From positions 1-64,000 of the forward strand of contig NZ_AJVC01000004.1 of assembly GCF_000261365.1 (NCBI RefSeq): 64,000 bases of DNA, read 5' to 3'. The translations under genes were made by a program, and so were the position numbers. Below are positions 1-51,600 of this stretch, one piece after another. The notes beneath the pieces are model-generated. The model was given only the letters and a program-made list of their open reading frames with translations. It searched no databases and was not told where the DNA came from. How positions within the stretch are numbered: position 1 is the stretch's first letter; each line of letters begins with the position of its first letter. This DNA comes from Herbaspirillum sp. GW103. GTDB taxonomy: Bacteria; Pseudomonadota; Gammaproteobacteria; Burkholderiales; Burkholderiaceae_D.

Positions 1-551
1 GCTGCTGCCCCCTGTGCCGTTGGCGATTCCTGTGTCGCTGACGTTGCAGGTGCGGCCGATGCTGCTGATGCTGGTGCTCCCTGTGCTACAGCTGATTCCG
101 GTGCCGCCGACGATGCAGGTGCGGTCGACGCAGCCGATGCTGCTGCCCCCTGTGCCGCTGGTGATTCTTGTGTCGCCGACGTTGCAGGCGCGGCCGATGC
201 AGTTGATGCTGCTGATGCTGTCCCCAGTACTGCTGGTGGTTCCGCTGTCACTGACGATGCTGGTGCAGCCGATGCTGCTGATGCTTCCTGTGCCGCTGGT
301 GATTCCTGTGTCGCTGACGATGCAGGTGCTGGAGAGTTCACTGGCGACTCCTGTACTGCTGTCTCTGCCGGCGACTCCGACACCGCTGGTACTGCCAGTT
401 TCACATCCGCGAGCAACGCCGTCTGCGCGCCCACCGGCACACTCAAGGCCGGGCCCAGGGTCAGCAATATGGCAGCATAGAGACGGTGCTTACGCAGAGC
501 GGCAGGCGGCATGATGCAGGCACGATTGTGCTGCTTCTTTTGATTCATCAT
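1..551 (-). CDS. Autotransporter-like secreted protein, N-terminal part (runs off left edge)
   Basis: About 183 codons are visible and the gene continues beyond the window start. It opens with two ATG codons after a GAGGAAGG ribosome site. Residues 1-43 form a long signal peptide whose core, LYAAILLTLGPALSVP, is almost identical to that of the 1396-residue autotransporter next door (LYAAVLLTLGPALSVP). The mature part seen here is a low-complexity Ala/Ser/Pro/Glu stretch of imperfect repeats around ATQESPAAQ and ASAASAAPA. It is probably a surface or secreted protein and a paralogue of the neighbour. No catalytic or barrel domain is in view, so the autotransporter call rests on the shared signal peptide and promoter element. 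Confidence 0.7.
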   Translation of the reverse strand, partial: MMNQKKQHNRACIMPPAALRKHRLYAAILLTLGPALSVPVGAQTALLADVKLAVPAVSESPAETAVQESPVNSPAPASSATQESPAAQEASAASAAPASSVTAEPPAVLGTASAASTASAAPATSATQESPAAQGAAASAASTAPASSAAPESAVAQGAPASAASAAPATSATQESPTAQGAA

Positions 552-657
552 CTTACCTTCCTCGATCTTGGGCGAGGCCATCGGGAAGCTAGACCCATCC
601 CCCGCCCTTGTTGTTATCCCTCCCTGCGTACCGGTTGAACCGGTTTTTGTAGGGAGG

Positions 658-701
658 CATTGTCGAGGGGCACTGCCTTTCTGGACATTGTCTTTTGGTG
701 C
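658..701 (-). promoter_or_regulatory. Twin GACAATG element, copy 1
   Basis: Read on the minus strand this holds CCAAAAGACAATG and, exactly 28 bases further on, a second GACAATG. It lies 107 bases upstream of the partial autotransporter start. The same pair with the same spacing precedes the two neighbouring related genes. Downstream of the second box, copies 1 and 2 also share CCCTACAAAAA and a duplicated CCGG. It is probably a regulator-binding region; the regulator is unknown. Confidence 0.6.
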
Positions 702-802
702 TAGCCAGGATGCAGCACCATGCGCCTTGATGCCTTGCGCGAGAATGGAAGGAGAGCGAGAAGCCGCCCTCAGCCAGGCTGCTGGGGGCGGCCGCGTGCA
801 GA

Positions 803-3800
803 TCAGAAGCGCCAGCTGGCCTTGAGCGCTGCGGACTGGTTGATGAAACCGCTGCGACCTTCCGCATCCAGGCGCAGCGAGATATCGGTGGCGGTGCTCA
901 ACTGGTGGCGATAGCTGATCCCCGCCTTGAACAACCATGCAGAACGTGCCGCACCGGGTGCGCTGAAGGCTTGGCCCGGCGTCCCGGCATAAGTGGCCAC
1001 CAGTTCGTCGCGCGCGTTGATGACATCGTAGCTGGCACCGACATGGGCGCTGATCTGCGAAGCCGTCGTGAGCGCATAGTTCAAGCGCGTACCCACACCC
1101 AGCAACAAGGCCTGGTTGCGCTTGCCCTGCACCGCCAGGCTCAGATCGCCTGCCCCGCTCTCGGCGTAGGACGGACTTTGCAGACGGGTGTAATCAAGCT
1201 GCAAGGCCGGTACTACGCTCAATGCTTCACCCAAGGGCAGCGTATGCGATACGTTTGCGCCCACGTGCGCACTCCAGCTGTCGTAGCGGCTGCTGGCCAC
1301 GCGGTTCAACCCGCCGAAGCGCAGCTCACGTGCCAGGCGGTTGCTGTTCCAGCCGGCGTCGGCCTGCCACGACAGCGCCAGCTCACCCAGCGGGACGCTG
1401 CCATAGACGGCCACCATGTTGGATTCGATACGGCTGCGGCTGCCGGTACCGGTGATGGCGGTGTTGCCGCTGGCACTGGTGCTGGCATAGGCGTAAGAAA
1501 ATCCAATGCGCCCGCTGTCCAGCTCCGCCTCGGTGCCCGCGGCCATGCCCCGGGTGCTGGCGCTGAAACCGGAGTCGCCATTGCGATCCCCCTGGTTCGA
1601 ACGCGATTCGAAAGGCATGAGCCAGACCTGGCGATCGCCACCGGCCTCGCCATAGCCCACGCCGCGCCCCGCACCGCCCATACCGCCGCCAGCGTTACCC
1701 GCATCAATGCGCGTGGCAATGACGCGATTGAGCGAAGCCAGGGTGCCACGGATGGCGTTGTCGCTGATGTTGCTGGGCAGGGTCTGAGCGGCGGCGCGCA
1801 GAACGCTGGTGGCGTCGGGCAGACGTCCCAGAGCAGTGACGACCTGCGCCATATCGGCGCTGGAGGGACGCTGGATCTGACGGTCCAGCACCGGCGCCAC
1901 CGCAGCCGCAGCAGTGGCGGCAGCGACTGCCATCGGAGTACGCACTGCCGGGGCTACTTTGACTGCGGGTGCTGGCGGTGCTGCCGGTGCTGCCGGTGCT
2001 GGCGGTACCACTACGGCCGCCGCTGCAGGCACGCTCGCGGTGGAGGTGCCGGATGCCGGTGCACTGACCACCGGCATGTTCGGAGCAACTGCACTGGAAG
2101 CAGGCGCGCTCGTTGCCGGTGTGCTCGCGGCAGGTGTACTGGAAGCAGGCGCACTCGTTACCGGTGTGCTCGCGGCAGGTGTACTGGTAGCAGGCGCGCT
2201 CGTTACCGGTGTACTCACGGCAGGTGTACTGGTAGCAGGCGCGCTCGTTACCGGTGTGCTCGTGGCAGGCGTACTGGTAGCAGGCGCGCTCGTTACCGGT
2301 GTGCTCGTGGCAGGCGTACTGGTAGCAGGCGCGCTCGTTACCGGTGTGCTCGTGGCAGGCGTACTGGTAGCAGGCGCACTCGTTACCGGTGTGCTCGCGG
2401 CAGGTGTACTGGTAGCAGGCGCACTCGTTACCGGTGTGCTCGCGGCAGGTGTGGTGGTGGCCGATGTGTTGGTGACAGGAGTAGCGGAGGCAGGTGTACT
2501 GGTCACCGCTGCGCTCGCCGCCGGTGTACCGGATTCAGATGTGCTTGCAGGCGTAGCGGCCGGCGCGAGCGTGTCATGGACCAGCTTGTCGATACTCACC
2601 GCACTGACGATATCGAGGTCCACGGCGTTGCTCGTCACCACGGGGTGGAAGTCGAACAGCAGCGAATTGTCCGAAACGTTCAGGCGCGGGGCGCTGAGGC
2701 TGCCGGCCGTGACCACGCCAGCCAGCTTCTGACCGTTGTTCAGCGTCGCAGCCTTGGCCACATCGACCGCCATCGCGGCGCCCGAGGCGAAGCTGGCCGC
2801 ATCGGTCACCACCAGCTTGCCGTATTGGGTGGCGCTGGCCACGCCTATCGTCAGGGTCTGTCCCGCCGTCTGGACGTAGCCTGGCACGCTCAGCGTGCCG
2901 GCCGCGATCGTCGTATTGCCGCTGTAGCTCACCGTACCGAGCACGCGCAGCGTCCCCTCGCCCTGCTTGACCAGGCTGCCCGGCGCGCTGCCATCGGCAA
3001 TGCCGTTGTTGAGCGTGAAGGTGAAAGCCTGAGTATCGATATTGCCCGTACCGCTGATGCGCACCGCATTGGCCAGGGTCAGACTGTCAGCGGCGGCGCG
3101 CAGGGTGGTGCCATCGCCCATGACCAGCGCGCCGCTGCCCAGCGCGGTGGATGAGGCCACGCCCAGCGTGCCGCCTTCCAGGCGGGTTCCGCCCGAATAA
3201 CTGTTGTTGCCCGACAGGGTCAGGCTGCCCTCGCCGGTCTTGACCAGGCTACCCACGTAGTCGGCATCGGTCTTCTTGCGCACGGCGTCGAGGTAGGCGG
3301 TCTGGCCGTTGTAGTTGCCCAGGGCCAGGTTGGCCGCGACGGTATTGGCATCGGTGGAGAGCATGTAGGTCAGCAATTGCTCCTTGCTCAGCAAAGGCCC
3401 GCTGCCGGACTGCTTCAGAATGGCGGCCGCCAGCGTGTTGGCGGTCACGGCCTTGTCGGCGTTCTGAAAGGCGGTATTGTCGGCCTTGCTCTTGCTGGCC
3501 TGATAGGCGGCGTTGAGTCGGGCCCGCGTCTGCACCAGCGCCAAGGCCGCATCGTAGTCACTGTCGACCTTCGCCGTGACGACCGCAGTGGCACTGTCGA
3601 GCGTCGCTTGCAATGTGGAGGGAGACAAAGCCTCCCAGGCGGCCAGTTGCGCCTTCTCTTCGCTCTTGCGCTGGATCAGCGCGGCTTCGGAAATGTCGTT
3701 GCTCCAGGTATCGGCCTTGCCTGCACCGATCCTGGCATTGAAGACGCCCAGCAACTGGCCGGGGCCGTAGAGAGCCTTGTTCAGATCCGGCAAGCCCCAG

Positions 3801-4993
3801 CCAAACATGGCGTTGGGAGCATCGGCCGGACCATCGCCGAGATGCTTGGCCGTAGTCAGCAGAATGGTGCGAATGGCCTGGTTGTCCAGCTCCGGATAAC
3901 GTTGCATCAGCAGGCCCAGCGCGCCCGTCACGTGGGGGGCCGCCATGGAGGTGCCGGAGGCGTTGACCAGGGAGGTATCGGAGGTGATGTTCAGGCTGGG
4001 AATAGTCGAGCCCGGTGCGGATACGCACCAGTACCTGGCCAGACCGCACTGGTTGGAAAAACTGGGCAGCGCCGAACTGGCATTGACCGCGGCTACCGCG
4101 ATCCAGTTCTGCTCCAGCTCCGGCCTGAAATACGGCAGCGCCGAGCGGATGTTGACGTTGGCCTTGCCGGTATTGCCGGCGGCCCAGACCATGAGCGCAT
4201 TGGACTCTTGCGCCACGTCGGCGGCCGCATCCAGCCAGCTCTTCTTGCCGCCGCCCTGCAGGCGCTGGTAGGAGGCCGCCACGCCGCCGATGCTGCCGAA
4301 ATCATCGCGTGAATCGGGGCTGCCCCAGCTGCTGTTGATCACGCGCACACCGGCGCTGGCGAGATTGCCGTAGGCCGCCTTGAAGTAGTTGTAGTCCATG
4401 TTCACGCCATAGACCGAACTGTCGGTGCCGTTGGTATTGGTAATGTAGTAGTCGCTGTCGAACGCCACGCCCAGGAAACCGGCGCCATTCTTGGATGCCG
4501 CGATGGTGCCGGAGACATGGCTGCCGTGCTTGTCGTTGAGGGAACTCAGGGCACCGGTGGTGCTGAAGGCGTCACCAGCCTTCCAGGGCTGCTTGCCATC
4601 CTGGTATTGCGATCCATCGTTGGCATAGGTCCCCACGACGGCCAGCGGCGTGGCGTTGCGGCCGACGAATTCGGCATGGGTCAGCAAGAGCCCCGAATCG
4701 ACCGAGCCCAGCTTGATGCCCAGGCCGGTGTAGCCCGCCGCATAGGCATATTGGGCATTCATGGCGCCCAGGCCCCAGTTGGTCTTGAACTCCTTGTTGT
4801 CGGCCCAGCTGGCCACGGCCGCTGCCGCATCGGTGCTGGTGCTGCCGTCATAGTTGACATAGCTCTGCGCCATCGCCGGCACGCTCAGGGCCGGGCCCAG
4901 GGTCAGCAATACGGCGGCATACAAGGCTTTTTTCTTGAAGACGGCCGGTGGCATCGGCGCGACTTGATGTAGCGACTTCTTGTTCTTCTTCAT
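803..4993 (-). CDS. Subtilisin-like serine protease autotransporter (type Va secretion)
   Basis: This 1396-residue protein would be exported by Sec and thread its passenger through its own outer-membrane barrel. Residues 1-43 are a long signal peptide ending in AMAQ. The S8 protease domain follows, with Asp99 in VDSG, His156 in HGSHVSG, Asn274 in AAGN and Ser349 in GTSMAAPHV, so the catalytic set is complete. Around residues 580-700 are passenger-associated repeats (GEGSLTLSGNNSYSGGT). A Pro/Thr/Ser/Ala linker made of 15-residue repeats comes next, then a beta-barrel domain ending in ASWRF with the terminal Phe typical of outer-membrane proteins. The ATG follows a GGAAGGGAAG ribosome site. 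It is likely a surface or released protease; the substrate cannot be read from sequence. Confidence 0.92.
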   Translation of the reverse strand: MKKNKKSLHQVAPMPPAVFKKKALYAAVLLTLGPALSVPAMAQSYVNYDGSTSTDAAAAVASWADNKEFKTNWGLGAMNAQYAYAAGYTGLGIKLGSVDSGLLLTHAEFVGRNATPLAVVGTYANDGSQYQDGKQPWKAGDAFSTTGALSSLNDKHGSHVSGTIAASKNGAGFLGVAFDSDYYITNTNGTDSSVYGVNMDYNYFKAAYGNLASAGVRVINSSWGSPDSRDDFGSIGGVAASYQRLQGGGKKSWLDAAADVAQESNALMVWAAGNTGKANVNIRSALPYFRPELEQNWIAVAAVNASSALPSFSNQCGLARYWCVSAPGSTIPSLNITSDTSLVNASGTSMAAPHVTGALGLLMQRYPELDNQAIRTILLTTAKHLGDGPADAPNAMFGWGLPDLNKALYGPGQLLGVFNARIGAGKADTWSNDISEAALIQRKSEEKAQLAAWEALSPSTLQATLDSATAVVTAKVDSDYDAALALVQTRARLNAAYQASKSKADNTAFQNADKAVTANTLAAAILKQSGSGPLLSKEQLLTYMLSTDANTVAANLALGNYNGQTAYLDAVRKKTDADYVGSLVKTGEGSLTLSGNNSYSGGTRLEGGTLGVASSTALGSGALVMGDGTTLRAAADSLTLANAVRISGTGNIDTQAFTFTLNNGIADGSAPGSLVKQGEGTLRVLGTVSYSGNTTIAAGTLSVPGYVQTAGQTLTIGVASATQYGKLVVTDAASFASGAAMAVDVAKAATLNNGQKLAGVVTAGSLSAPRLNVSDNSLLFDFHPVVTSNAVDLDIVSAVSIDKLVHDTLAPAATPASTSESGTPAASAAVTSTPASATPVTNTSATTTPAASTPVTSAPATSTPAASTPVTSAPATSTPATSTPVTSAPATSTPATSTPVTSAPATSTPATSTPVTSAPATSTPAVSTPVTSAPATSTPAASTPVTSAPASSTPAASTPATSAPASSAVAPNMPVVSAPASGTSTASVPAAAAVVVPPAPAAPAAPPAPAVKVAPAVRTPMAVAAATAAAAVAPVLDRQIQRPSSADMAQVVTALGRLPDATSVLRAAAQTLPSNISDNAIRGTLASLNRVIATRIDAGNAGGGMGGAGRGVGYGEAGGDRQVWLMPFESRSNQGDRNGDSGFSASTRGMAAGTEAELDSGRIGFSYAYASTSASGNTAITGTGSRSRIESNMVAVYGSVPLGELALSWQADAGWNSNRLARELRFGGLNRVASSRYDSWSAHVGANVSHTLPLGEALSVVPALQLDYTRLQSPSYAESGAGDLSLAVQGKRNQALLLGVGTRLNYALTTASQISAHVGASYDVINARDELVATYAGTPGQAFSAPGAARSAWLFKAGISYRHQLSTATDISLRLDAEGRSGFINQSAALKASWRF
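2101..2460 (-). repeat. Eight 45-bp tandem repeats inside the autotransporter
   Basis: Eight near-identical 45-bp units run without interruption. Each encodes the 15-residue unit TPVTSAPATSTPATS or a close variant on the minus strand. The array forms a Pro/Thr/Ser linker between passenger and barrel. Being in frame, copy-number changes would lengthen or shorten the linker without disrupting the gene. The array also creates long open frames on the opposite strand that I do not consider genes. Confidence 0.9.
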
Positions 4994-5109
4994 CTTCCCT
5001 TCCTAGGTCGATCGTGTGGAATTGGCCAGGAGATCGGGAATGCTTGCCCGCCCCCGCGCTGCGTGTCGTCGCCCCGGATGCCGGCTGATACCGGCTTTTT
5101 GTAGGGGCG

Positions 5110-5153
5110 CATTGTCGGGGGCCGACCAGGTTCTGCACATTGTCTTTTGGTGC
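5110..5153 (-). promoter_or_regulatory. Twin GACAATG element, copy 2
   Basis: Minus-strand CCAAAAGACAATG and a second GACAATG lie 28 bases apart, 117 bases upstream of the 1396-residue autotransporter start. It matches copies 1 and 3 in box sequence and spacing. Confidence 0.6.
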
Positions 5154-5266
5154 TGTTTGCACGCAGACAATGTGCTGTTTTTGGCATCACGCCAGGGCGT
5201 GATCAGAGGAAGGAAAAGACAAAAAAGAAGCGCAAGCCAGGTCAGCCGCGCTGACCGCAACCTGCT

Positions 5267-5794
5267 TCAGAAACGCCAGTTGGCGCGGATCCGATAGCTC
5301 ACGCTGGCCTTGAATGGCCAGGGCGGACGCGGCGTTCCGGGCACGGCCTCGGTCAGGGCGGCCAGGCCGTCGCGCTCGGCAAGGAGCTCGAAGCGACTGG
5401 CCGGATGGTGACTGCGTGGCGGCAGCGCACGCCCGCCGGAATGCAGCTGCGTGAGCACGCCTGACAATGAACGTTGACCAGGCTGGCCCGGCAGGGACAG
5501 ATCCAGATCAGCCACGCCAGCGGTGCCGAAGAATGTGTCTTGCCGACGCGAAGTACCGAGCTGCAGGCCGGGATCAAAGGTCCCCGGGACCAGGCCCAGG
5601 CCCGCCGCCAGATTGACGATGCCGGCCGTGGACGCCAGGCTGTGGCTATGGCCGCTGACCCGGTGCTGGGCCCTGGCGGCCAGGCCCAGCATCAGGCCCA
5701 GCACCAGCAGCATGAGGGCATTGCGCCAATAGGAAAGGAAGATCGCCGCAACATGCGGCGCGCCATGCTTGCTCAGGTTCTCACGATTGCTCAT
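5267..5794 (-). CDS. Short autotransporter barrel-fragment protein with signal peptide
   Basis: The preferred ATG at 5794 gives 175 residues. It has GAGGTGG upstream and puts the twin GACAATG element 116 bases away, as in the two paralogues; a GTG at 5893 would lie only 17 bases from it. Residues 1-43 contain a hydrophobic signal or anchor (LMLLVLGLMLGLAARAQ). The rest resembles the end of the neighbouring barrel: VPG..DPGLQLGTSR, then ADLDLSLPGQ, then RDGLAAL..AVPGTP, then FKASVSY, ending in the outer-membrane-type terminus RANWRF. It covers only a few barrel strands and no passenger. It is either a degenerate remnant or a small outer-membrane protein in its own right. Confidence 0.6.
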   Translation of the reverse strand: MSNRENLSKHGAPHVAAIFLSYWRNALMLLVLGLMLGLAARAQHRVSGHSHSLASTAGIVNLAAGLGLVPGTFDPGLQLGTSRRQDTFFGTAGVADLDLSLPGQPGQRSLSGVLTQLHSGGRALPPRSHHPASRFELLAERDGLAALTEAVPGTPRPPWPFKASVSYRIRANWRF

Positions 5795-5909
5795 CTGTTT
5801 GCCCACCTCGACGCTGCGGAATCGATCAGGGCAAACCACCATGCCGGATGCCCCGTCCTCGTTTTTTTTCATCCCCGGAGGGACGCTGCTCACCGCTTGT
5901 TATGTCGCG

Positions 5910-5953
5910 TATTGTCGGAGCACTGGGCGATTCTGGACACTGTCTTTTGGTGC
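5910..5953 (-). promoter_or_regulatory. Twin GACAATG element, copy 3
   Basis: Minus-strand CCAAAAGACAGTG and GACAATA lie 28 bases apart, 116 bases before the short barrel-fragment gene. Each box has one mismatch from the other copies, but the spacing and the flanking CCAAAAGACA are kept. Confidence 0.5.
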
Positions 5954-6030
5954 AGCTTCCGTAAAGAATATGTGAATTATTTTTCGTAAGCTCACCCACC
6001 CGGAAGATGAATCTTCTGTCGCAATGGCGC

Positions 6031-6063
6031 AAAAAAACCGGCAGCGCATCGAGGCGCTGCCGG
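6031..6063 (-). terminator. Intrinsic terminator of the emr efflux operon
   Basis: A perfect 10-bp stem, CCGGCAGCGC with GCGCTGCCGG, has a 6-base loop and is followed on the minus strand by seven T. It sits 24 bases past the stop codon of the outer membrane factor gene. Confidence 0.9.
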
Positions 6064-6086
6064 CGTGGGAGTGCGCTCGGGCGGAT

Positions 6087-7562
6087 TCAGCCCGGCTGGT
6101 CGGACCAGCCCAGTCCCAGCGCCTTCTGGATGCCCACGAAGCTGCGCGTGAGATTGGCCTCGGCCTGCAACAGGTTCTGTTGCGCGGTGAGTTGCTGGCG
6201 GGTGGTATCGAGCACCTCGATGAGCGTGCCGGTACCGGCTTGATAGCGTTGTCGCGCCAGCGCCAGCGCACGGTCGGCGGAGACCTTGGTACGTGCGAGG
6301 GTGGCCACGCTGATGCGACCATAGCGCATGCGCGAGAGCGCATCCTCGGCATCGCGCAGCGCTTCCAGCACGGCCTGGCGGTACTTCATCTCGGCTTCGT
6401 CACGCGCCCGTTCGGCTTGCGTGACGCGCGCCCTGGCGCGGCCAAAGTCGAGGAAATTCCAGCTCAGCATGGGGGCGCCGATGGCAGCGAAATCATCCAG
6501 GCGCGTCAGGTCCGATGGATGCGTGCCGCCCAGTCCGATGACACCAAAGAGCTTGAGGCTGGGATAGCGTGCCGCTTCGGCCTGGCCGATCCTGGCGGTA
6601 TCGGCGGCCAGCGTGCGCTCGGCCGCGCGCACGTCGGGCCGGCGACGCAACAGCGACACCGGATCGCCGACGGCGACCTGCTGCGGTGGCAGCGGCACCG
6701 GTGCGGTCGCGGCCAGTTCCGCATCGAGCGTGCCGGGCTCCTGCCCCAGCAGCGTGGCCAGCTGGTTGAGGTAGGCATCGCGCTCGGCCTGCAGGGGGAC
6801 CAGGTCGGCGCGGCTGGCATCGAGCTGGTTCTGCACACGCAACTGATCCAGCGACGAGGCGGTGCCGCGCTGGACCCGCTGGTCGGTCAGCTGCAGCATC
6901 TGCTCCTGCGCCTGCACCGCTTGCCGGCCCAGCGCCAGGCGCTGCTGGCGGTCGCGCAGGCTGATATAGGCGTTGCCCACCTCGGCGGCCAGGCTGACCT
7001 GTACATCGGCCAGCGAGGCTTGCGCGGCGTCCGCCGTCGCCGTGGCTGCCTGGACGGCGCGGCGGTGTGCGCCGAAGAGATCGATCTCCCAGCTGGCATC
7101 GAAGCCCACGCTGTAGAGATTGGCGCTGGTGGCCGAGCCATTGCCGGAGCTGGAACCGCCGGTCAGCGCCGCCAGATTGGCCGGTGGCAGGCGTGCGTGC
7201 GCCGCCAGCGCCGAGGCGCCCACGCTGGGCGCGGCGTTGGCCTGCTCCAGCGCCAGCCCGGCGCGCGACTGCTGCAGGCGGGCGCGTGCCACGCCAAGAT
7301 TCGGGTTGGCCTGCAAGGCGCGTTCGATGAGGCTGGTGAGCTCGGCATCACCCAGGGCTTGCCACCACTGGTTGATTGGCGCGGTGGTAGTCACGGTGTC
7401 GCCGCCGCGCACGAACTGCCTGGTGTGTGCGGCTTGCGGGGCGGCCTCGGGCGGGCCGACATAGTCCGGACCGAGGGCGCAGCCGGCCAGCAGAGCTGCC
7501 GCGGCCAGGGCGATGAGGCGCGTGGCCGGGAAGGAAGAAGAGGTCTTGTCCATGTTGTTCAT
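6087..7562 (-). CDS. Outer membrane efflux lipoprotein, NodT/OprM type
   Basis: This 491-residue protein is the outer-membrane channel of a tripartite drug exporter. It has a lipoprotein signal with lipobox LLAGC, then GPDYVGPP typical of the NodT/OprM family, and two outer-membrane efflux repeats with long coiled-coil stretches (for example ERALQANPNLGVARARLQ and LRDAEDALSRMRYGR). The start is ATG at 7562, which shares one base with the TGA of emrB (TGATG), implying translational coupling. It is the last gene of emrA-emrB-omf and is followed by a strong terminator. Confidence 0.92.
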   Translation of the reverse strand: MNNMDKTSSSFPATRLIALAAAALLAGCALGPDYVGPPEAAPQAAHTRQFVRGGDTVTTTAPINQWWQALGDAELTSLIERALQANPNLGVARARLQQSRAGLALEQANAAPSVGASALAAHARLPPANLAALTGGSSSGNGSATSANLYSVGFDASWEIDLFGAHRRAVQAATATADAAQASLADVQVSLAAEVGNAYISLRDRQQRLALGRQAVQAQEQMLQLTDQRVQRGTASSLDQLRVQNQLDASRADLVPLQAERDAYLNQLATLLGQEPGTLDAELAATAPVPLPPQQVAVGDPVSLLRRRPDVRAAERTLAADTARIGQAEAARYPSLKLFGVIGLGGTHPSDLTRLDDFAAIGAPMLSWNFLDFGRARARVTQAERARDEAEMKYRQAVLEALRDAEDALSRMRYGRISVATLARTKVSADRALALARQRYQAGTGTLIEVLDTTRQQLTAQQNLLQAEANLTRSFVGIQKALGLGWSDQPG

Positions 7563-9121
7563 CAATGAGAAGCCACCGGTGCGGCATGGGTCGGCAAGGG
7601 ACGCAGGAACAGCACCAGCGGTGTCACACACAGGATGGCCACGCCCAGCAGCCAGAACAGGTCGGCATAGGTCATGGTCAGCGCCTGGGCCTGGATGGTG
7701 CTGCCCATGAGCCGGATGGCCACATCCTGGCCGCCCAGCAGATGGCCTTGCGCAGCGATGGTGGATTGCACCAGCTCGGAATTGGCGTTGAGGCTTTCCT
7801 CCAGGCGGCGGCTGTGCAGCCACAGGCGCTGGTCCTGGATCACGGCGATGGCAGCCAGCGCCAGCGAGCCGCCAAGATTGCGCGCGGCGCTGTAGAGTCC
7901 GGAGGCATCGCCGGCCTGCGAGGGGGGCACCGAGCGGATCGCCGCCTGGTTCAGGAACAGCATCGCCAGCACGGTGCCCACCCCGCGCATGAGCTGCGAG
8001 GCCACGAAGGAGCCGCCGTAGGAGAGCGGACTGAGGTCGGTCTCGATGAAGGCCGAGGTCGCCAGCAGCAGGAAGCCCGTGCCGACGGCGATGCGGATGT
8101 CCACCAGCCGCATCAGCAAGGGCGTGAAGGGCATCATCAGGATCATCGGTACGCCCGAGAGCAGCACGATCCAGCCCGACTGCAAGGAGTTGTAGCCGGC
8201 GATGCCGGAGAGGAACTGCGGGATCACATAGGCCGTGCCATACAGCGCCACGCCCACGATCATGGCCATCATCACCACCGAGCCGAACTGGCGGTCACGC
8301 AAGAGCCGCAGTTGGATCACCGGATGGCGCGAGCGCACCTGGCCGATGGCCAGCAAGATGAAACCCAGCACGGAAGTGGCGGCCAGCCAGCGGATGTCGG
8401 GCGAGGAAAACCACTGCTCGCGCTCGCCCTCTTCGAGCACCACCGTCAGCCCGCCCAGCCCCAGCGCCAGCCCGGCAATGCCGAACCAGTCAGCCTGGCC
8501 GAACTGCTCGAACTTGGGACGCTCATAGGGGATCGCCACCAGCAGCAAGGTGATGAGGGCCGCGCCCACCGGCAGGTTGATGAAGAAGGCGTAGTGCCAG
8601 CTGACGTTCTCGGTGAGCCAGCCTCCCATCACCGGCCCCAGCACCGGCCCGAGAATGGCAGTAGCGCCGAACAGGGCATTGCCCACCGGCTGCTGCGCGC
8701 GCGGCAGCCGGGTGGCGATGATGGTCATGGCGGTCGGAATGAGCGCGCCGCCCGTGAAGCCCTGCCCGACCCGCCCCACGATCATCATCGGCAGCGTGGT
8801 CGAGAGACCGCACAGCACCGAGAACATCGTGAACAGGCCGGCTGCCGTCAGCAGCAGCACGCGCAGCCCCAGCAGCCGCTCCAGCCAGGCCGACATGGGG
8901 ATGATGACGATCTCGGCCACCAGATAGGCGGTGGCGATCCAGGTACCTTCGGTGCCGGAAGCACCAATCTCGCCCTGGATGGTGGGCAGCGAGGAATTGA
9001 CGATGGAGATGTCCAGCGTGGCCATGAGCGCGCCCAGCGTACCGGCGGCTACTGCCAGCCAGGCAGCGGCATCGGCCTTCTCTCCCTGGACGCCCTGCCC
9101 TGGCGACGCGGCGCTGCTCAC
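7562..9121 (-). CDS. emrB: DHA2-family multidrug efflux permease, EmrB/QacA type
   Basis: This 519-residue inner-membrane drug:proton antiporter has the 14-helix layout of the DHA2 branch of the major facilitator superfamily. Diagnostic segments include LDISIVNSSLPTIQG in helix 1 (the DHA2 motif around LDxTIVNVALP), GRVGQGFTGGALIP, and LGPVLGPVMGGWL corresponding to antiporter motif C. It overlaps emrA by four bases (ATGA) and the outer membrane factor by one, so the three are made as a unit. Control by the divergent MarR regulator is likely. The exported compounds cannot be inferred. Confidence 0.93.
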   Translation of the reverse strand: MSSAASPGQGVQGEKADAAAWLAVAAGTLGALMATLDISIVNSSLPTIQGEIGASGTEGTWIATAYLVAEIVIIPMSAWLERLLGLRVLLLTAAGLFTMFSVLCGLSTTLPMMIVGRVGQGFTGGALIPTAMTIIATRLPRAQQPVGNALFGATAILGPVLGPVMGGWLTENVSWHYAFFINLPVGAALITLLLVAIPYERPKFEQFGQADWFGIAGLALGLGGLTVVLEEGEREQWFSSPDIRWLAATSVLGFILLAIGQVRSRHPVIQLRLLRDRQFGSVVMMAMIVGVALYGTAYVIPQFLSGIAGYNSLQSGWIVLLSGVPMILMMPFTPLLMRLVDIRIAVGTGFLLLATSAFIETDLSPLSYGGSFVASQLMRGVGTVLAMLFLNQAAIRSVPPSQAGDASGLYSAARNLGGSLALAAIAVIQDQRLWLHSRRLEESLNANSELVQSTIAAQGHLLGGQDVAIRLMGSTIQAQALTMTYADLFWLLGVAILCVTPLVLFLRPLPTHAAPVASH

Positions 9122-10311
9122 TGCGGCTCCTTGCGGGTGGCGTTGATCTCGCTGTTGCGTTCGCGCAGATCGCGCAGTTCATCCTTGGCGGCGATGGTGT
9201 TGACCTCCACCGTCACCGACAGGCCGGCCACGAAGGCGCGGGTTTCTTCCGGGGTGGCATCGATGGCAATGCGCACCGGCACGCGCTGGACGATCTTGGT
9301 GAAGTTGCCCGTGGCGTTCTGCGGCGGCAGCAGCGAGAACTGCGCCCCGGTGCCCGGCGAGAGGCTGTCCACATGACCGTGGAACTCCACGCCCGGCAAG
9401 GCATCGACCTTGATGATGGCGGGCTGGCCGATGCGCATGATGCCGATCTGAGTCTCCTTGAAGTTGGCCGAGACGTAGAAGTGTGTCGGCACCACGGTCA
9501 TCATGCGCGTCCCCGGCGAGACGAACTGGCCGACCCGCACCTGCTTGTCGCCGATGCGGCCATCCACGCTGGCGCGGATCTCGGTATAGCCGAGGTTGAC
9601 GCTGGCGGCGTCATACTGCGCACGGGCGGTTTCGCCCTGGGCCTGGGCCTGGCGCACCTGCGCCTGCAGCGAGCGCACCCGCAGCCGGGCCGCATCCAGC
9701 GCCGCACGGCGCGCCGCCACGGTGCTGCGCGCCTGGGCCTGCTGGTTGCGCAGGCTGGTCAGGCGTTCGCGGGTCTCGGCGCCGGAGGCGGCCAGGGGCG
9801 TGTAGCGTTCCACTTCGGCGCTGGCGAAGCGGGCATCCTCGTCCGCCGAGGCCAGCTGTGCCTTGGCCTGGGCGATGGCGGCCTGCTGCTCGGCCAGCTG
9901 CGCCTTGGCAGCTTCCTCGCTGGCGGCGGCGGCATCGATCTGGGCCTTGGCCTGAGCCGCCTGCGCGGAATAATCACGGGCATCGATGCGTACCAGTGCC
10001 TGGCCGGCCTTGACGATCTGGTTGTCGGCCACCAGCACCTGGTCGACATAACCGGTGACCTTGGAGGAGACCGTCACGCTGTCGGCCTGGACGAAGGCAT
10101 CATTGGTGCTTTCGAGATACTTGCCACGGAACTGGTAGTACAGCACCCAGGCCGCTACGATGACCAGCACCAGCAAACCCAGCGTACGCAGGATGAAACG
10201 GGCACGCGGGCTCATGCGTTTCTTGGGAGCGCTGTTCTTGTCGTTACCGGGAGAGGAGGAATCTGGCTGGGATGGACTGGCTTCTGGTTTGCCGGGTGTG
10301 GCGTCGGTCAT
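9118..10311 (-). CDS. emrA: Membrane fusion protein of tripartite efflux, EmrA/HlyD type
   Basis: This 397-residue periplasmic adaptor links the EmrB permease to the outer-membrane channel. The N-terminus is cytoplasmic and Pro/Ser/Lys-rich, followed by one membrane helix (TLGLLVLVIVAAWVLYY, near residues 40-56). A biotinyl-lipoyl-like half (VSSKVTGYVDQVLVADNQIV), a long Ala/Gln-rich coiled-coil hairpin (about 110-220) and a second HlyD half (VDGRIGDKQVRVGQFVSPG) complete the family layout. It is first in the operon; its promoter must lie in the repeat-rich gap shared with marR. Confidence 0.93.
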   Translation of the reverse strand: MTDATPGKPEASPSQPDSSSPGNDKNSAPKKRMSPRARFILRTLGLLVLVIVAAWVLYYQFRGKYLESTNDAFVQADSVTVSSKVTGYVDQVLVADNQIVKAGQALVRIDARDYSAQAAQAKAQIDAAAASEEAAKAQLAEQQAAIAQAKAQLASADEDARFASAEVERYTPLAASGAETRERLTSLRNQQAQARSTVAARRAALDAARLRVRSLQAQVRQAQAQGETARAQYDAASVNLGYTEIRASVDGRIGDKQVRVGQFVSPGTRMMTVVPTHFYVSANFKETQIGIMRIGQPAIIKVDALPGVEFHGHVDSLSPGTGAQFSLLPPQNATGNFTKIVQRVPVRIAIDATPEETRAFVAGLSVTVEVNTIAAKDELRDLRERNSEINATRKEPQ

Positions 10312-11140: not shown

Positions 11141-12638
<1,498 letters not shown>

Positions 12639-12836
12639 GATGATTCTTTCCTTAAATGACAAATTGTCGCAATTTTCTTTGCATTAAATAATTTACATCG
12701 ATTTTTCATCACGAATAATGCCATAAATTCGGAAGCACCATTTTAATCCTCCGGCGTAAAGTTGATCCCGGCGATTCACCATGAATCGGACCAGATTCGG
12801 ACCCCTTTCGACCATCCACCTGAACCGGAGCACTCC
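12639..12836. promoter_or_regulatory. acdR-acdS divergent control region
   Basis: These 198 bases are AT-rich near the acdR end (runs such as GCATTAAATAATTTACATCG) compared with the surrounding genes, consistent with Lrp-type binding. I see no clean FNR box here; TTGATCCCGGCGATT matches only one half. The acdS ribosome site GGAG lies at 12826-12829. Confidence 0.5.
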
Positions 12837-45601: not shown

Positions 45602-48600
45602 TCACACCGTAGCCACCAGCCGATGCTCACCCGGTGTGACGGGCACTCGCAATGCGCCACCATCGCAGGTGAGTGGCATGCCGTCCAGTTCAGCTGCCGA
45701 GATACCGACGCAGCGCATCCCCGGCGATTCGACCTGGATGATGTAGCGTGCCGCACCCAAGACGATTTTTGCCTCAAAGCCAGGCCATCCGGCTGGAATA
45801 CACGGATCGAGGATTAACACCTCGCCTTCGCGGCGAATGCCTAGAATCCCCTCCATACCCGCACGGTGCATCCAGCCGGCGGCACCGGTGTACCAGGTCC
45901 AGCCGCCCCGGCCCTCGTGCGGCGATACCGAATACACATCCGCAGCCACCACGTACGGTTCCACGCGGTAGCGCGCCGTCTGAGCAGGTGTCCGAGCATG
46001 GTTGATAGGATTGACCAGAGCGAACAGGGCATGGGCGTGCTCGCCCGCCTGCGGGTCGCCGCGTAACTGCGTGAACGCTAGGATGGCCCACATGGCCGCG
46101 TGGCTGTATTGACCTCCATTCTCACGTAAGCCCGGCGGGTAACCCAAGATGTAGCCAGGGTCGCTCTGTGTGTGGTCAAAAGGTGGGGTAAAGAGCAACG
46201 CCAGCCCCGCCTCTGGCAGCACCAGGTGCGAGCGCAGCGAGTCCATCGCCATCTGTGCGTGGCCAGGATCGGCGACTCCTGACAGTACGGCCCAGGATTG
46301 GGCGATCGAATCGATGCGGCATTCCTCGCTGTGGCGGCTGCCCAGCCACGTGCCATCGTCGAATATGGCGCGCCGATACCAGGCGCCGTCCCAGGCCTCG
46401 CGCTCCAGCGAGGCCGTCACAGATTGGACATGGCTCCGCCAGCGCGCGGCACGAGTGGGGTCGCGTTCCTCTGCCAGAGGAGCGAATAGGATCAGTGTGC
46501 GTACCTGCAGCCAGCCGAGCCAAACGCTCTGCCCCCGGCCTTCCTGGCCCACACGATTCATGCCATCGTTCCAATCGCCGGTCCCCATCAGCGGCAGCCC
46601 TAATTCGCCAGTGAGGTCGATACTCTGGTCCAATGCGCGCGCGCAGTGCTCAAACAGCGTTGTAGAGATGCCTGCAGGCATCGGCTGGAAAAAGGCATCA
46701 TGTTCGCCTACCTGCAGCGCGGGGCCGTCCAGGAAGGCGATGGATTCGTCAAGTACCGCTGTATCGCCCGAGACGATCACATAGCTGGCCGCGGCGAAAG
46801 CCAACCAGATGCGGTCGTCCGAGATTCGCGTGCGCACGCCTTGGCCCGAATGCGGCAGCCACCAATGTTGCACGTCACCTTCGAGGAACTGACGGCCTGC
46901 AGCGCGCAGCAAGTGTTGACGCGTTTCTTCAGGCCGCGCGAATGTGAGCGCCATGCCATCCTGCAGTTGGTCTCGAAAGCCGTAGGCACCGCTGGCCTGA
47001 TAGAACGCCGAGCGGGCCCAGATGCGGCAGGCCAGCGTCTGGTAGAGAAGCCAACCGTTGAGCAGGATGTCCATCGCGCGGTCTGGCGTGCGCACTTGCA
47101 CGGCACCGAGCAGCCCTTCCCAATGGTCACGCACCCGCTGCAGTTCGGCCTCCAGATCAGTCTCACGCCAGCGCGCCGCTAGTTCCAAACTTTCCTGCGC
47201 GCTGCCGCATTGCCCGAGTAGAGCGATGATGTCTACCGACTCGCCGGGCCGCAGCACTAGGCTGCACTGCAGCACAGCGCAGGGATCCAGGCCCGCACCC
47301 ACCGTACCGGATAGGGACGCCTGGCTCTGCAATGCAGCGGGTGCCGCCAGACTGCCGCGATGGCCAAGGAATTCCTTACGGTCAGCGGTCCAAGCGGTCT
47401 GCCGGCCCCCGAGATCGGCGAAAGCGACTCTACCCGGAAAGGCTGTGCTCCAGGGATTGCGCGCCAGCAGCACGCCGCTGGCTGCATCGATCTCGGTAAG
47501 GATGAAGGGTGCGCAAACCGCACGCGAGGCGCCCAACACCCATTCTGCATAGGCCGTGACGGATAGGCGCCGCGTCTGTGGGCTGAGATTGTGTAAGGTG
47601 AGGCGCGACACCTTAATTGGGTCGTCCAGTGGCACGAACTGCAGCAGTTCAAGCGCGATACCGTGCGCCTCGTGCGTGAAGCGGCTATAGCCATGACCGT
47701 GGCGTGCAACGTAGGTACCGCCGTCGCGGATTGGCTGCGCTGTAGGGCTCCAGAGCTCGCCGCTCGACTCGTCTCGTACGAAGAACGCCTCGCCGGTCGG
47801 ATCGATCACTGGATCGTTGGACCATGGGGTAAGTTGATTCTCACGGCTGTTACCAGCCCAAGTACTTGCGCTGCCATCGGCCGAGACCTGGAAGCCGAAG
47901 GCAGGGTTGGCGATGACGTTGATCCAGGGGGCGGGGGTGGTCTGTCCGTCGGTGAGTACGGTGACGTATTCGCGACCGTCCTGATCGAAGCCACCGAGTC
48001 CGTTGAAGAACTCCAGCCGCGCCGTGTCTGTGCTCTGCCCCTGCCTCGTCAGGTTGGAAGATTGGGTATAGGTAGCTAATTCGAGCGCCGCACTCGCGTA
48101 GTGCACCGTCTCCGGCAGGAGACCGATTTGCCGAGCGATGTCGCCCCGACGCGCTAGCAGCAGCACGCGAGCTGCTGAATGCAGTAAGGCCCGGGCTGAC
48201 ACATCCATCAGATCTGCGCGCAGTGTATGGACCACCCCCTGGGCTATCGTCTCGTCGTGTGGTCGAAGGGGCGACTGGCTCCGGCGCACGGCCGTTTCGA
48301 TAGCGGACTGCAGATCCTGCACATAAGAGGAAGCTCGCTCATTAACGATCACCAGATCGACGCTCAGCCCCTTCATTCGCCAGTACTCGTGCGCACGAAG
48401 TAGTTGGCGCACCTGAGCAATATCCTCGATGTCATCGATTCGCAACACCACGATTGGCAAGTCGCCGGAGACCGAGTGCCGCCACAAGCCCGACTGCGGG
48501 CCTGCACCACGAGCGATCTCCTCGGCCGGTGGGCGGAAGCGTGTATCCGCATAGAGGATAGGTGCCGCCAGCCGCTGGAAGTCTGCGGCTTCGTCGGCTT

Positions 48601-51600
48601 CGACGCCGATGTGTCGCAACTGTACCTGGGCCTGGGTCCAGGCCAAGGTCCGAGCACGCTCGAAGGCGCTACGGTCATGGTGCTGGTCCACCAATTCCAG
48701 TAGCGCTTCGCGAGTAGGCGCCACCAGCGTCCAGAAGGCCAGGCGCGCCATACGACCGGGCGCGATACGCACGCGGTGTCGCACCGAGAAAACCGGATCG
48801 AGTACCGTACCGGCCGTACCAGACAGCATGGCTCCGTCCGCCATGGCTTGCGCCGTGGCGGATGTACGACCTCGGCCCAGGAACCGTGCCCGGTCGGATT
48901 CGTACTGCACGGGTGCCGTGACGATGCCTTCGACCACGGCGAAGTGTGCGGCCCAGATCCGCTGCTCGTGCGGCCCGCGAGGGCGTCGCGTAGCGATTAG
49001 GGCACCGAACTCTGGGAGATATTCAGTCTGCACGAACATCTTGGAGAAGGCCGGATGGGCATCATCACCCGCGGGCGACGCCAACACCACCTCAGAGTAA
49101 GAGGTGAGTTCGATTTCACGAGTCTTGCGGCCTGTATTGACGACTGTGACGCGGCGTACCTCGCCGTCAACTTCGGCGGACACCAGCACCTCCATTGTGG
49201 TCGTCAGGCTGCCGTCGTGCCGCGTAAAGGCGGCGTGATCCTCGGCGAAGACTACCTCGTAGCTGTCGGGTGACATGGCCAGCGGCTGCGCCGCAGCGGA
49301 CCATATCTGACCGGTATCCGTGTCACGTAGATAGACGTAGGCGCCCCAGTCGTCGCGGGTCGCGTCTTCGCGCCAGCGCGTCACAGCCAACTCACGCCAG
49401 CGGCTGTAGCCAGCACCCGCTGCGGTGAGCATGACGGCATAACGCCCGTTGGACAGCAGGTGCGTAGCAGGGGCCGCCGTAACAGACGGGTCTATGTGCC
49501 GTACCGCATGTAAGTCACCATGTGGATTGGTTGCGCCAGACAGCACCTCTTCAGCGCGCGCACGCGCCACAGAGACGAGGCGCGGCATACGCTCGTGCAA
49601 CAGCAATTCGCAGGCCTGGATCATCGGTTCACGATGGAAGCGTTCCCGCATGCGAGCGCCCTGGAGCGTATTGGCGATTGCGACAAGTGTCATGCCCTGG
49701 TGATGCGCCATAAAGCTGCGTACGATGGCGACCTGCGACCCGCCGGGCAGGCGGGCACGGGTGAAGTCCAGCGCCTCGTAAAAGCCATAGCGCCCGAGCG
49801 CACCAAGCGTCTGCAGGTACTCAAAGTTGCGTTGTGCGAGCGGTGCATCGACCATGGTAGCGAGACCGGTCGCGTAAGGCGCGATCACCAGATCCTGAGC
49901 CAGCCCCCGTTTTAGGCCCAGGCCTGGCACGCCAAAGTTGGAGTACTGGTAAGTGAATTCCAGGTCGCGAGCGTTGTACGCCGACTCGGAGATGCCCCAC
50001 GGCACGCTCATCCGCCGACCGTAGGCCATCTGGTGCTGCACGATCAGGCGATTGGTCTGCTCCAGTAGGCTACCTGCCGGTGCGCGCATCACCAGCGAGG
50101 GCATCAGATACTCGAACATCGACCCTGACCAAGATACCAGGGCCGATCCACGTCCTACGGGGATGGCTGTCCGATCCAAGCGGAACCAGTGGCGCGTGGA
50201 TACGTCGCCCTTGGCGATTGAGAAGAGGCTGGCTAGTCGCGCCTCAGAGGCTAGTAAGTCGTAGCAGTTGGGATCGAGCACGTTCTCCACTGCGGCATAA
50301 CCTATGGAAAGCAGTTTGCGTTCAGGATCCAACAAAAAGGCGAAGTCCATCCCTAGCGCTAGCGCACGCGCCTGTTGCGCCAACGCCTGCCAGCGGGCAT
50401 CGATAGCATTCGCCGCGACGCCGAATGACTTAGCGTCGCGTGCCTGTTGCTCGATCCGCCCTTGCAGCGCATTGGTCCAGAATAGCAGGTCGTCACCTTC
50501 CGCTTGTATTGCTGGGACCAGCGCCTGCGCTTCTTCTGCCGCCTTATCGGCCAGGCGCTGAAATACCGGAAGTGGCATGCTGGCAGGATCGTGGAACCCT
50601 GCCTCGATCTCGGCAAGAACGCTCAGCAGTCGCTGTCCCTGTGCCCCTTGGGTCGAAGGTTTAGCAGACGCCGACTCCCGGGCTAGCGCGAGTGCGTCGC
50701 TCGCACCCTCCGTCCAATCCGTCGACAGCGACGCACCCATCCATTCTTCGCAGGCATTAGCCAGTACGATCAAGTGGCCGGCGAGGTTACCGCTGTCCAC
50801 AGACGACACATAGGCCGGTGCAAGCACCTGGTTCGTGCGCGTGTCATACCAGTTGTAGAAATGGCCTCGGAACCTTTCCAATGTCTGCAAGCTGACGAAA
50901 GCCGCTTCCAGGCGCTCGCAAGTCTGCAGGGCACCAGCCCAGCCAAAATCGCGGGCCGCCACCGTCGACAGCAAGTACAAGCCTATGTTGGTAGGCGAGG
51001 TGCGGTGAGCGATCACTGGCTTCGGATCTTCCTGAAAATTGTCCGGTGGAAGCATGTGCTCAGCCGGCGTCACGAAGGTTTCGAAAAAACGCCAAGTGCG
51101 ACGTGCAGTAAGCCGCAGGGCCAAGGTATCTGTGAGTTCGGGCGCACCGGGTGTCACGATCGGCGGACGGCGGCTGACGCGCCAGGCCAAGACCGGCGCT
51201 GCGACCCAGAGCGCCGACAGCGGCAACGCAATTGCGCATGCTGCAGGAAAGAACACGCTAACGCCCATGGCGAATACTAGGGCCAACAGCACGCCACCGG
51301 CCATCTGGCCATAGAAGCCAGTTATACCGGGGCGCGGGCGAGCGGCGGACTGGGCTGCGGTTGTCCATTCCAGCAGATGCCGATGCGTCGCGTAGAGTCT
51401 GATCAGGGTACGCGTAATAGCATCCATCGTGCGCCAGGTCTGATCCGGAAGCAGAGCTAGCGTCCAGAGTGTCTGCATTACGGCTAACCGAAGATCGCTG
51501 GCCAACCGGCGTAGTTGGCTACCCAGCCCGATGCCCGCGCGCGTTGGCGCTAGTCCGGAGATGTGGGGCAGAAAGAACGGCACTGCCAGTGCCAGTACCA

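Follow-up and report, generated by a model that had tools for sequence, protein, structure and literature searches.

The first 64,000 nucleotides of contig NZ_AJVC01000004.1 from Herbaspirillum sp. GW103, hereafter termed the window, contain three copies of a DNA element, each preceding a gene of one autotransporter family. The footprint of the element is larger than first seen and reads GYACYA-N3-GACAAT-N4-AGA-N15-GACAAT, the hexamer being its sole repeated part. Comparison with orthologous loci supports a real cis-element with selection probably acting on its boxes and spacing, and with moderate confidence we interpret it, from sequence, as an activator-dependent promoter of a tandem autotransporter gene family. 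Some members of Herbaspirillum are plant-associated; for surface proteins of this genus, the data map a probable promoter base by base, and the mapped DNA can serve as a concrete bait in the search for its regulator. The element is apparently new to the literature, yet ordinary in kind. Among the matches listed, titles and abstract openings on Herbaspirillum autotransporters, on promoters or transcription starts and on type V secretion do not describe it, and those retrieved for GACAATGTCC, for AraC-family direct repeats and for class II activators with direct repeats hold no entry on it.

Three copies of the element in the window

The copies and the genes that follow them are located as listed here.

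658..701, minus strand: element 1, before gene 1 (GCACCA 701-696, GACAAT 692-687, AGA 682-680, GACAAT 664-659)
5110..5153, minus strand: element 2, before the subtilase autotransporter (GCACCA 5153-5148, GACAAT 5144-5139, AGA 5134-5132, GACAAT 5116-5111)
5910..5953, minus strand: element 3, before gene 3 (GCACCA 5953-5948, GACAGT 5944-5939, AGA 5934-5932, GACAAT 5916-5911)
3..551, minus strand: gene 1, truncated at the contig edge; N-terminal part of a probable autotransporter whose passenger is repetitive and rich in Ser/Ala/Pro/Glu; beta-domain outside the window
803..4993, minus strand: gene 2, subtilase (S8) autotransporter of 1396 residues (PF00082, E 4.1e-45; PF03797, E 1.1e-38)
5267..5794, minus strand: gene 3, 175 residues, similarity confined to the C-terminal ~100-130 residues of the beta-domain of gene 2

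All three copies lie on the minus strand, which is also the strand of genes 1, 2 and 3, and in each of them the first box, GACA(A/G)T, is followed by GACAAT at a spacing of exactly 28 bp. The initial annotation had reported three such copies with this invariant spacing at distances of 107, 117 and 116 bases from the gene starts; all were recovered at the same places, and the distances hold when counted from the lowest coordinate of each element to the ATG codons at 551, 4993 and 5794, respectively. Copy 3 carries GACAGT as box 1 and GACAATA at box 2. The conserved part exceeds the twin boxes: GCACCA precedes the first box and AGA follows it. Between copies 1 and 2, the likeness also continues for a stretch beyond the second box. 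When CACCAAAAGACANTGTNCAGAA was searched with up to three mismatches, 3 matches were found in the window against 0 in 100 shuffles, and in the 5.05-Mb genome the exact long pattern is confined to the three window copies, while its reversed control does not occur. The loose pattern GACAATG-N21-GACAATG (up to three mismatches), taken alone, is not significant in the window (7 matches with 4.8 expected; at least 7 in 20 of 100 shuffles). At 5166-5174, upstream of box 1 of element 2, GACAATGTG(CAG) recurs in inverted orientation, as it does in L032 and L035.

Conservation of the element across Herbaspirillum

Orthologues of the subtilase autotransporter, identified with a 390-residue query, are present in 9 of 34 genomes of the genus (69-100% identity; the next match reaches 44% over part of the query), and all 6 of the 145 family genomes matching this protein at a cut of E 1e-60 belong to Herbaspirillum. 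Conservation upstream of orthologues had been named beforehand as the observation on which the proposal would stand or fall, and the element precedes the orthologue in all nine genomes, with an altered second box in G019. In total, 14 sites were recovered, of the gene 2 type in nine genomes, the gene 1 type in G000, G025 and G010, and the gene 3 type in G000 and G024; every one lies before this autotransporter gene family, which agrees with the suggested tie to a small family of surface proteins. Thirteen sites have a spacing of 28 bp, whereas G025 gene 1 has 29. Among GACAAT pairs with at most one mismatch and spacings of 16-45, counted in the window and eight regions chosen for carrying the autotransporter locus, spacing 28 accounts for 12 of 25 pairs and every other spacing for at most 4. 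Both boxes read GACAAT letter for letter in 11 of the 14 sites and box 2 in 13, while GYACYA (14/14) and AGA (13/14) surround box 1 only.

A sequence profile trained on 13 of the sites was used to score 150 of ~1,300-2,700 first-look candidates in each of the 34 genomes. All 14 sites scored at E 3.2e-6 or better and the next match at 0.035; G019, the site outside training, in which the second box is CACACT, scored E 3.2e-6. No further sites rose above noise among these candidates, so the scatter away from genes that would have spoken against the element was not seen; since no more than 150 per genome were scored, weak further sites could have been missed. In a collection of 84,980 species, a 42-base pattern matched 18 stretches, five of them from Herbaspirillum (six sites; H. 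frisingense, H. huttiense, H. aquaticum and two further strains) and 13 from scattered groups, the latter taken as chance, gene context aside. Likewise, 11 of 392 family genomes hold a match with at most one mismatch, eight at Herbaspirillum autotransporter loci and three strays (G004, G006 and G238) taken as chance, again gene context aside; the reversed control gave 8 matches in 7 genomes.

The most informative comparison involves a distant group, G010, G011 and G012, where the autotransporter is 69-73% identical to gene 2. Here the first box lies 281-335 bases from the ATG, versus 141-153 in the other 11 sites, and the element is ~247-301 bases from the gene, so that the location 100-120 bp before the gene given in the initial annotation holds for close relatives only (107-117 bp). 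Between eight close and three distant sites, mean identity is 0.92 for GCACCA, 0.22 for N3, 1.00 for GACAAT, 0.22 for N4, 1.00 for AGA, 0.37 for the spacer and 0.96 for the second GACAAT; outside the boxes it is 0.26 for the upstream flank, 0.56 for the 14 bases after the second GACAAT and 0.32 further downstream. G025 gene 1, with its spacing of 29, was left out of the column counts and of these identities, and G019 out of alignments A1 and A2. The contrast is less sharp between the close group and the gene 3 sites (N3 1.00, N4 0.72, first GACAAT 0.83). With a matrix built from nine sites without the distant group, the distant site was the top match in two of its three regions; in the remaining region it came second, behind another element. 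The next score was ~25 bits or more lower. Because boxes and spacing stay fixed on a near-chance flank and spacer, they are best read as a base-contact footprint and not as a residue of duplication. Thus the impression, formed on one raw sequence, that spacers differ while selection holds boxes and spacing is borne out by distant orthologues.

A candidate activator-dependent promoter and its rivals

The layout of the element suggests a 43-bp promoter common to the tandem family, in which the upstream 22 bp (GYACYA-N3-GACAAT-N4-AGA) would be the operator of a DNA-binding activator that contacts RNA polymerase, and the second GACAAT would be taken by the polymerase as its -10 hexamer. Transcription would start ~7-9 bases past box 2, near a conserved C-Y-A-C-AAAA, which would put the activator site at about -51 to -28, centred near -40 and covering the place of an apparently missing -35 box. 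Since the operator would lie over this place, the spacing between operator and -10 hexamer would be rigid and the intervening bases free; the near-invariant spacing, the poorly conserved spacer and the variable leader fit such a class II layout. The bases at the presumed -35 place are TGTCCA, TATTAA and similar. A -10 hexamer depends chiefly on A in position 2 and T in position 6; the second GACAAT has both, and the altered box 2 of G019 retains them. Upstream of the family, an efflux operon is followed by a terminator-like site, and gene 3 is therefore likely to depend on a separate promoter before 5794; within the ~240 bases between this site and gene 3, the element is the conserved block.

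6037..6064, minus strand: terminator-like site of intrinsic type, after the upstream efflux operon; 11 pairs, T run

Several observations weigh against such a promoter. The identity of boxes 1 and 2 at most sites is awkward, as a chance -10 hexamer would match box 1 rarely; box 2 is nearly invariant, whereas -10 hexamers usually tolerate change; and its surroundings are C/G-rich. That no sigma-70 hexamer pair was found in positions 1-8000 would agree with the promoter, yet shuffles average only 1.0. In addition, nearly all sites trained the profile and a limited number of candidates was scored with it, the sites outside training being G019 for the profile and the distant group for the matrix from nine other sites.

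The initial annotation had proposed one regulator acting on two equal boxes, and a single regulator binding both GACAAT boxes as a direct repeat, as a dimer or tetramer that activates or represses, remains a serious rival because the hexamers match; we consider it possible, if clearly less probable than the activator-dependent promoter. Besides the matching hexamers and the rigid spacing, it is favoured by an inverted copy of ~9-12 bp that precedes box 1 in three gene 2 promoters, namely in G000 and G024, with 21 bases between the arms, and in G019, where it lies further away. However, this inverted copy is carried by just 3 of the 14 sites and was not seen in the remaining ones, and the two boxes are not equal: box 1 sits in a 22-bp footprint, while box 2 is a bare hexamer placed like a -10. 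The full recognition motif is therefore not present at both copies, and as GYACYA and AGA flank box 1 alone, box 2 would be at most part of a site. Moreover, 28 bp correspond to ~2.7 helical turns, so repeat copies would face different sides of the DNA.

An alternative sigma factor could instead recognize the element, box 1 or CAGAA serving as the -35-like part and box 2 as the -10-like part. This would agree with the rigid spacing, the strong conservation of both parts and the failure to find a sigma-70 pair, but appears unlikely. A sigma factor normally has further promoters, and none exceeded noise among the candidates scored in the 34 genomes; the 22-base gap between the hexamers also exceeds that usual for sigma-70 or extracytoplasmic function promoters. 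Equally doubtful is a dedicated Herbaspirillum regulator or sigma factor that would read GACAAT twice, 28 bp apart, as operator and at -10, and would serve one surface-protein family only; if this were true, the element would travel with each tandem gene copy.

Still less probable is that the boxes act at the RNA level, as part of an mRNA leader that is structured or regulatory. A hairpin does follow box 2 in eight aligned sites of the close group (gene 1 and gene 2 types, excluding G019, the distant group and the two gene 3 sites), where 93.8% of cells pair overall and 97.9% in the inner stem, and only 19 of 500 shuffles reach its covariation score. Covariation support for this leader hairpin is nevertheless weak, as 108 of 500 shuffles equal or exceed it in the number of pairs changed on both sides and 404 in that of further pair types, and the outer stem would fall largely before the inferred start. 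There are no conserved pairs within the element itself (13 aligned sites), and the distant group keeps the boxes despite a different, longer leader. With no Rfam match at gathering score in the window (0 matches), and with no pairs inside the element, an RNA element was rejected.

630..644, minus strand: gene 1 leader hairpin, downstream of element 1; weak covariation
5080..5095, minus strand: gene 2 leader hairpin, downstream of element 2; weak covariation

Together with their T runs, these two hairpins may also be read as plus-strand intrinsic terminators facing the genes, and as such could stop antisense transcripts. In the gene 2 leader, GACAATG contains an ATG from which an upstream open reading frame might start. 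By eye this frame looked open in several gene 2 leaders, but it was dropped: by reading, the ATG is absent in G019, G010 gene 1, G000 gene 3 and the three distant sites, and frame and length vary. In the long leaders of the distant group (L029, L030 and L031), a possible leader peptide, M(R/E)EGCVLS and later AVGCRSPP, lies behind GGGAGACTCC in all three.

Least credible is that the copies are mere tandem duplicates alike without function: genes 1, 2 and 3 are interrelated, and genes 1 and 2 are alike in leader and signal peptide, but flank and spacer are near chance between close and distant groups while the boxes are kept.

The gene family, its neighbourhood and known systems

The description of the three genes as autotransporter-related is fair, except that gene 1 is incomplete, as the window starts at the first base of the contig. 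Gene 2 has both a passenger and a C-terminal beta-domain. For gene 1 this architecture can be traced only in the G025 homologue, which is repetitive and carries an autotransporter beta-domain (PF03797, E 4.5e-37). In stretches of 18-46 residues, the N-terminal region of gene 1 is 48-72% identical to the signal-peptide regions of family members. Gene 3 has no Pfam match, even at E 10, and aligns to the gene 2 beta-domain with 39 of 129 residues identical (E 8e-13; blastp against gene 2 alone, composition correction off). Between G000 and G024, the ratio of nonsynonymous to synonymous substitution rates (dN/dS) is 0.54 for gene 3 (166 codons) versus 0.21 for gene 2 (first 431 codons). Gene 3 thus seems less constrained than gene 2 and may be a shrunken copy, a remnant of a beta-domain. 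By eye, a tandem Thr/Pro/Ala-rich repeat linker precedes the gene 2 beta-domain (2100-2500), and gene 1 is repeat-like to the contig edge (3-450). The gene 1 type copy of G010 (L031:13398-15291) is broken ~18 codons after its start by a gene that, by reading, resembles an insertion-sequence transposase; its upstream element is intact.

6087-10311: efflux operon with an outer-membrane factor, a major facilitator superfamily (MFS) pump and a HlyD-type adaptor

The outer-membrane factor and MFS pump genes adjoin the autotransporter in all eight regions chosen for this locus. Elsewhere in the window, the minus strand carries at 45602-54163 a gene of 2853 residues with GH94 and glucoamylase domains, which we take to resemble cyclic beta-glucan synthases.

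In its proposed layout, the element is like the class II sites of MarA, SoxS, Rob and RamA, with one asymmetric forward operator over the -35 place and a free spacer to the -10. In the excerpted text of PMC12052159, class II marboxes are in forward orientation and overlap the -35 hexamer, and that of PMC8811837 gives the RamA site at micF as CACT-7X-AAA near -41; the register of our element resembles the RamA site, with CAC(C/T)-N7-AAT in most sites. Its match to the marbox consensus, however, covers 9-11 of 14 positions, a level attained by 8-95% of the 300 shuffles made for each site. The -11 forward marbox register gave the top score, alone or tied, at all 14 sites, with ties given to the first register met. 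As it does not exceed the shuffles, marbox likeness was rejected as evidence, and membership of the MarA family is not claimed. AraC-type helix-turn-helix domains gave 29 matches in the genome (28 above the curated cut-off) and none in the window, the nearest on the contig lying ~300 kb away. A LysR gene beside the autotransporter in G028 was set aside as a weak candidate, because it stands tail to tail with it and adjoins a peptide ATP-binding cassette transporter. An Lrp/AsnC gene is located at 12177-12662.

The AraC I1-I2 operator and the HrpB hrpII box (TTCG-N16-TTCG) are paired-half-site operators with repeats about two helical turns apart. The element shares with them direct repeats at a fixed spacing upstream of genes. 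In those operators the motif is present in both halves; here the distance is 28 bp and the hexamer alone is common to both. At the protein level, Ssp of Serratia marcescens (PMC9977779) is an example of a subtilase autotransporter of type V secretion, and gene 2, with its S8 protease passenger and autotransporter beta-domain, is of the same kind. The family departs from this type in the repetitive, low-complexity passenger of gene 1 and in the 175-residue probable beta-domain remnant encoded by gene 3.

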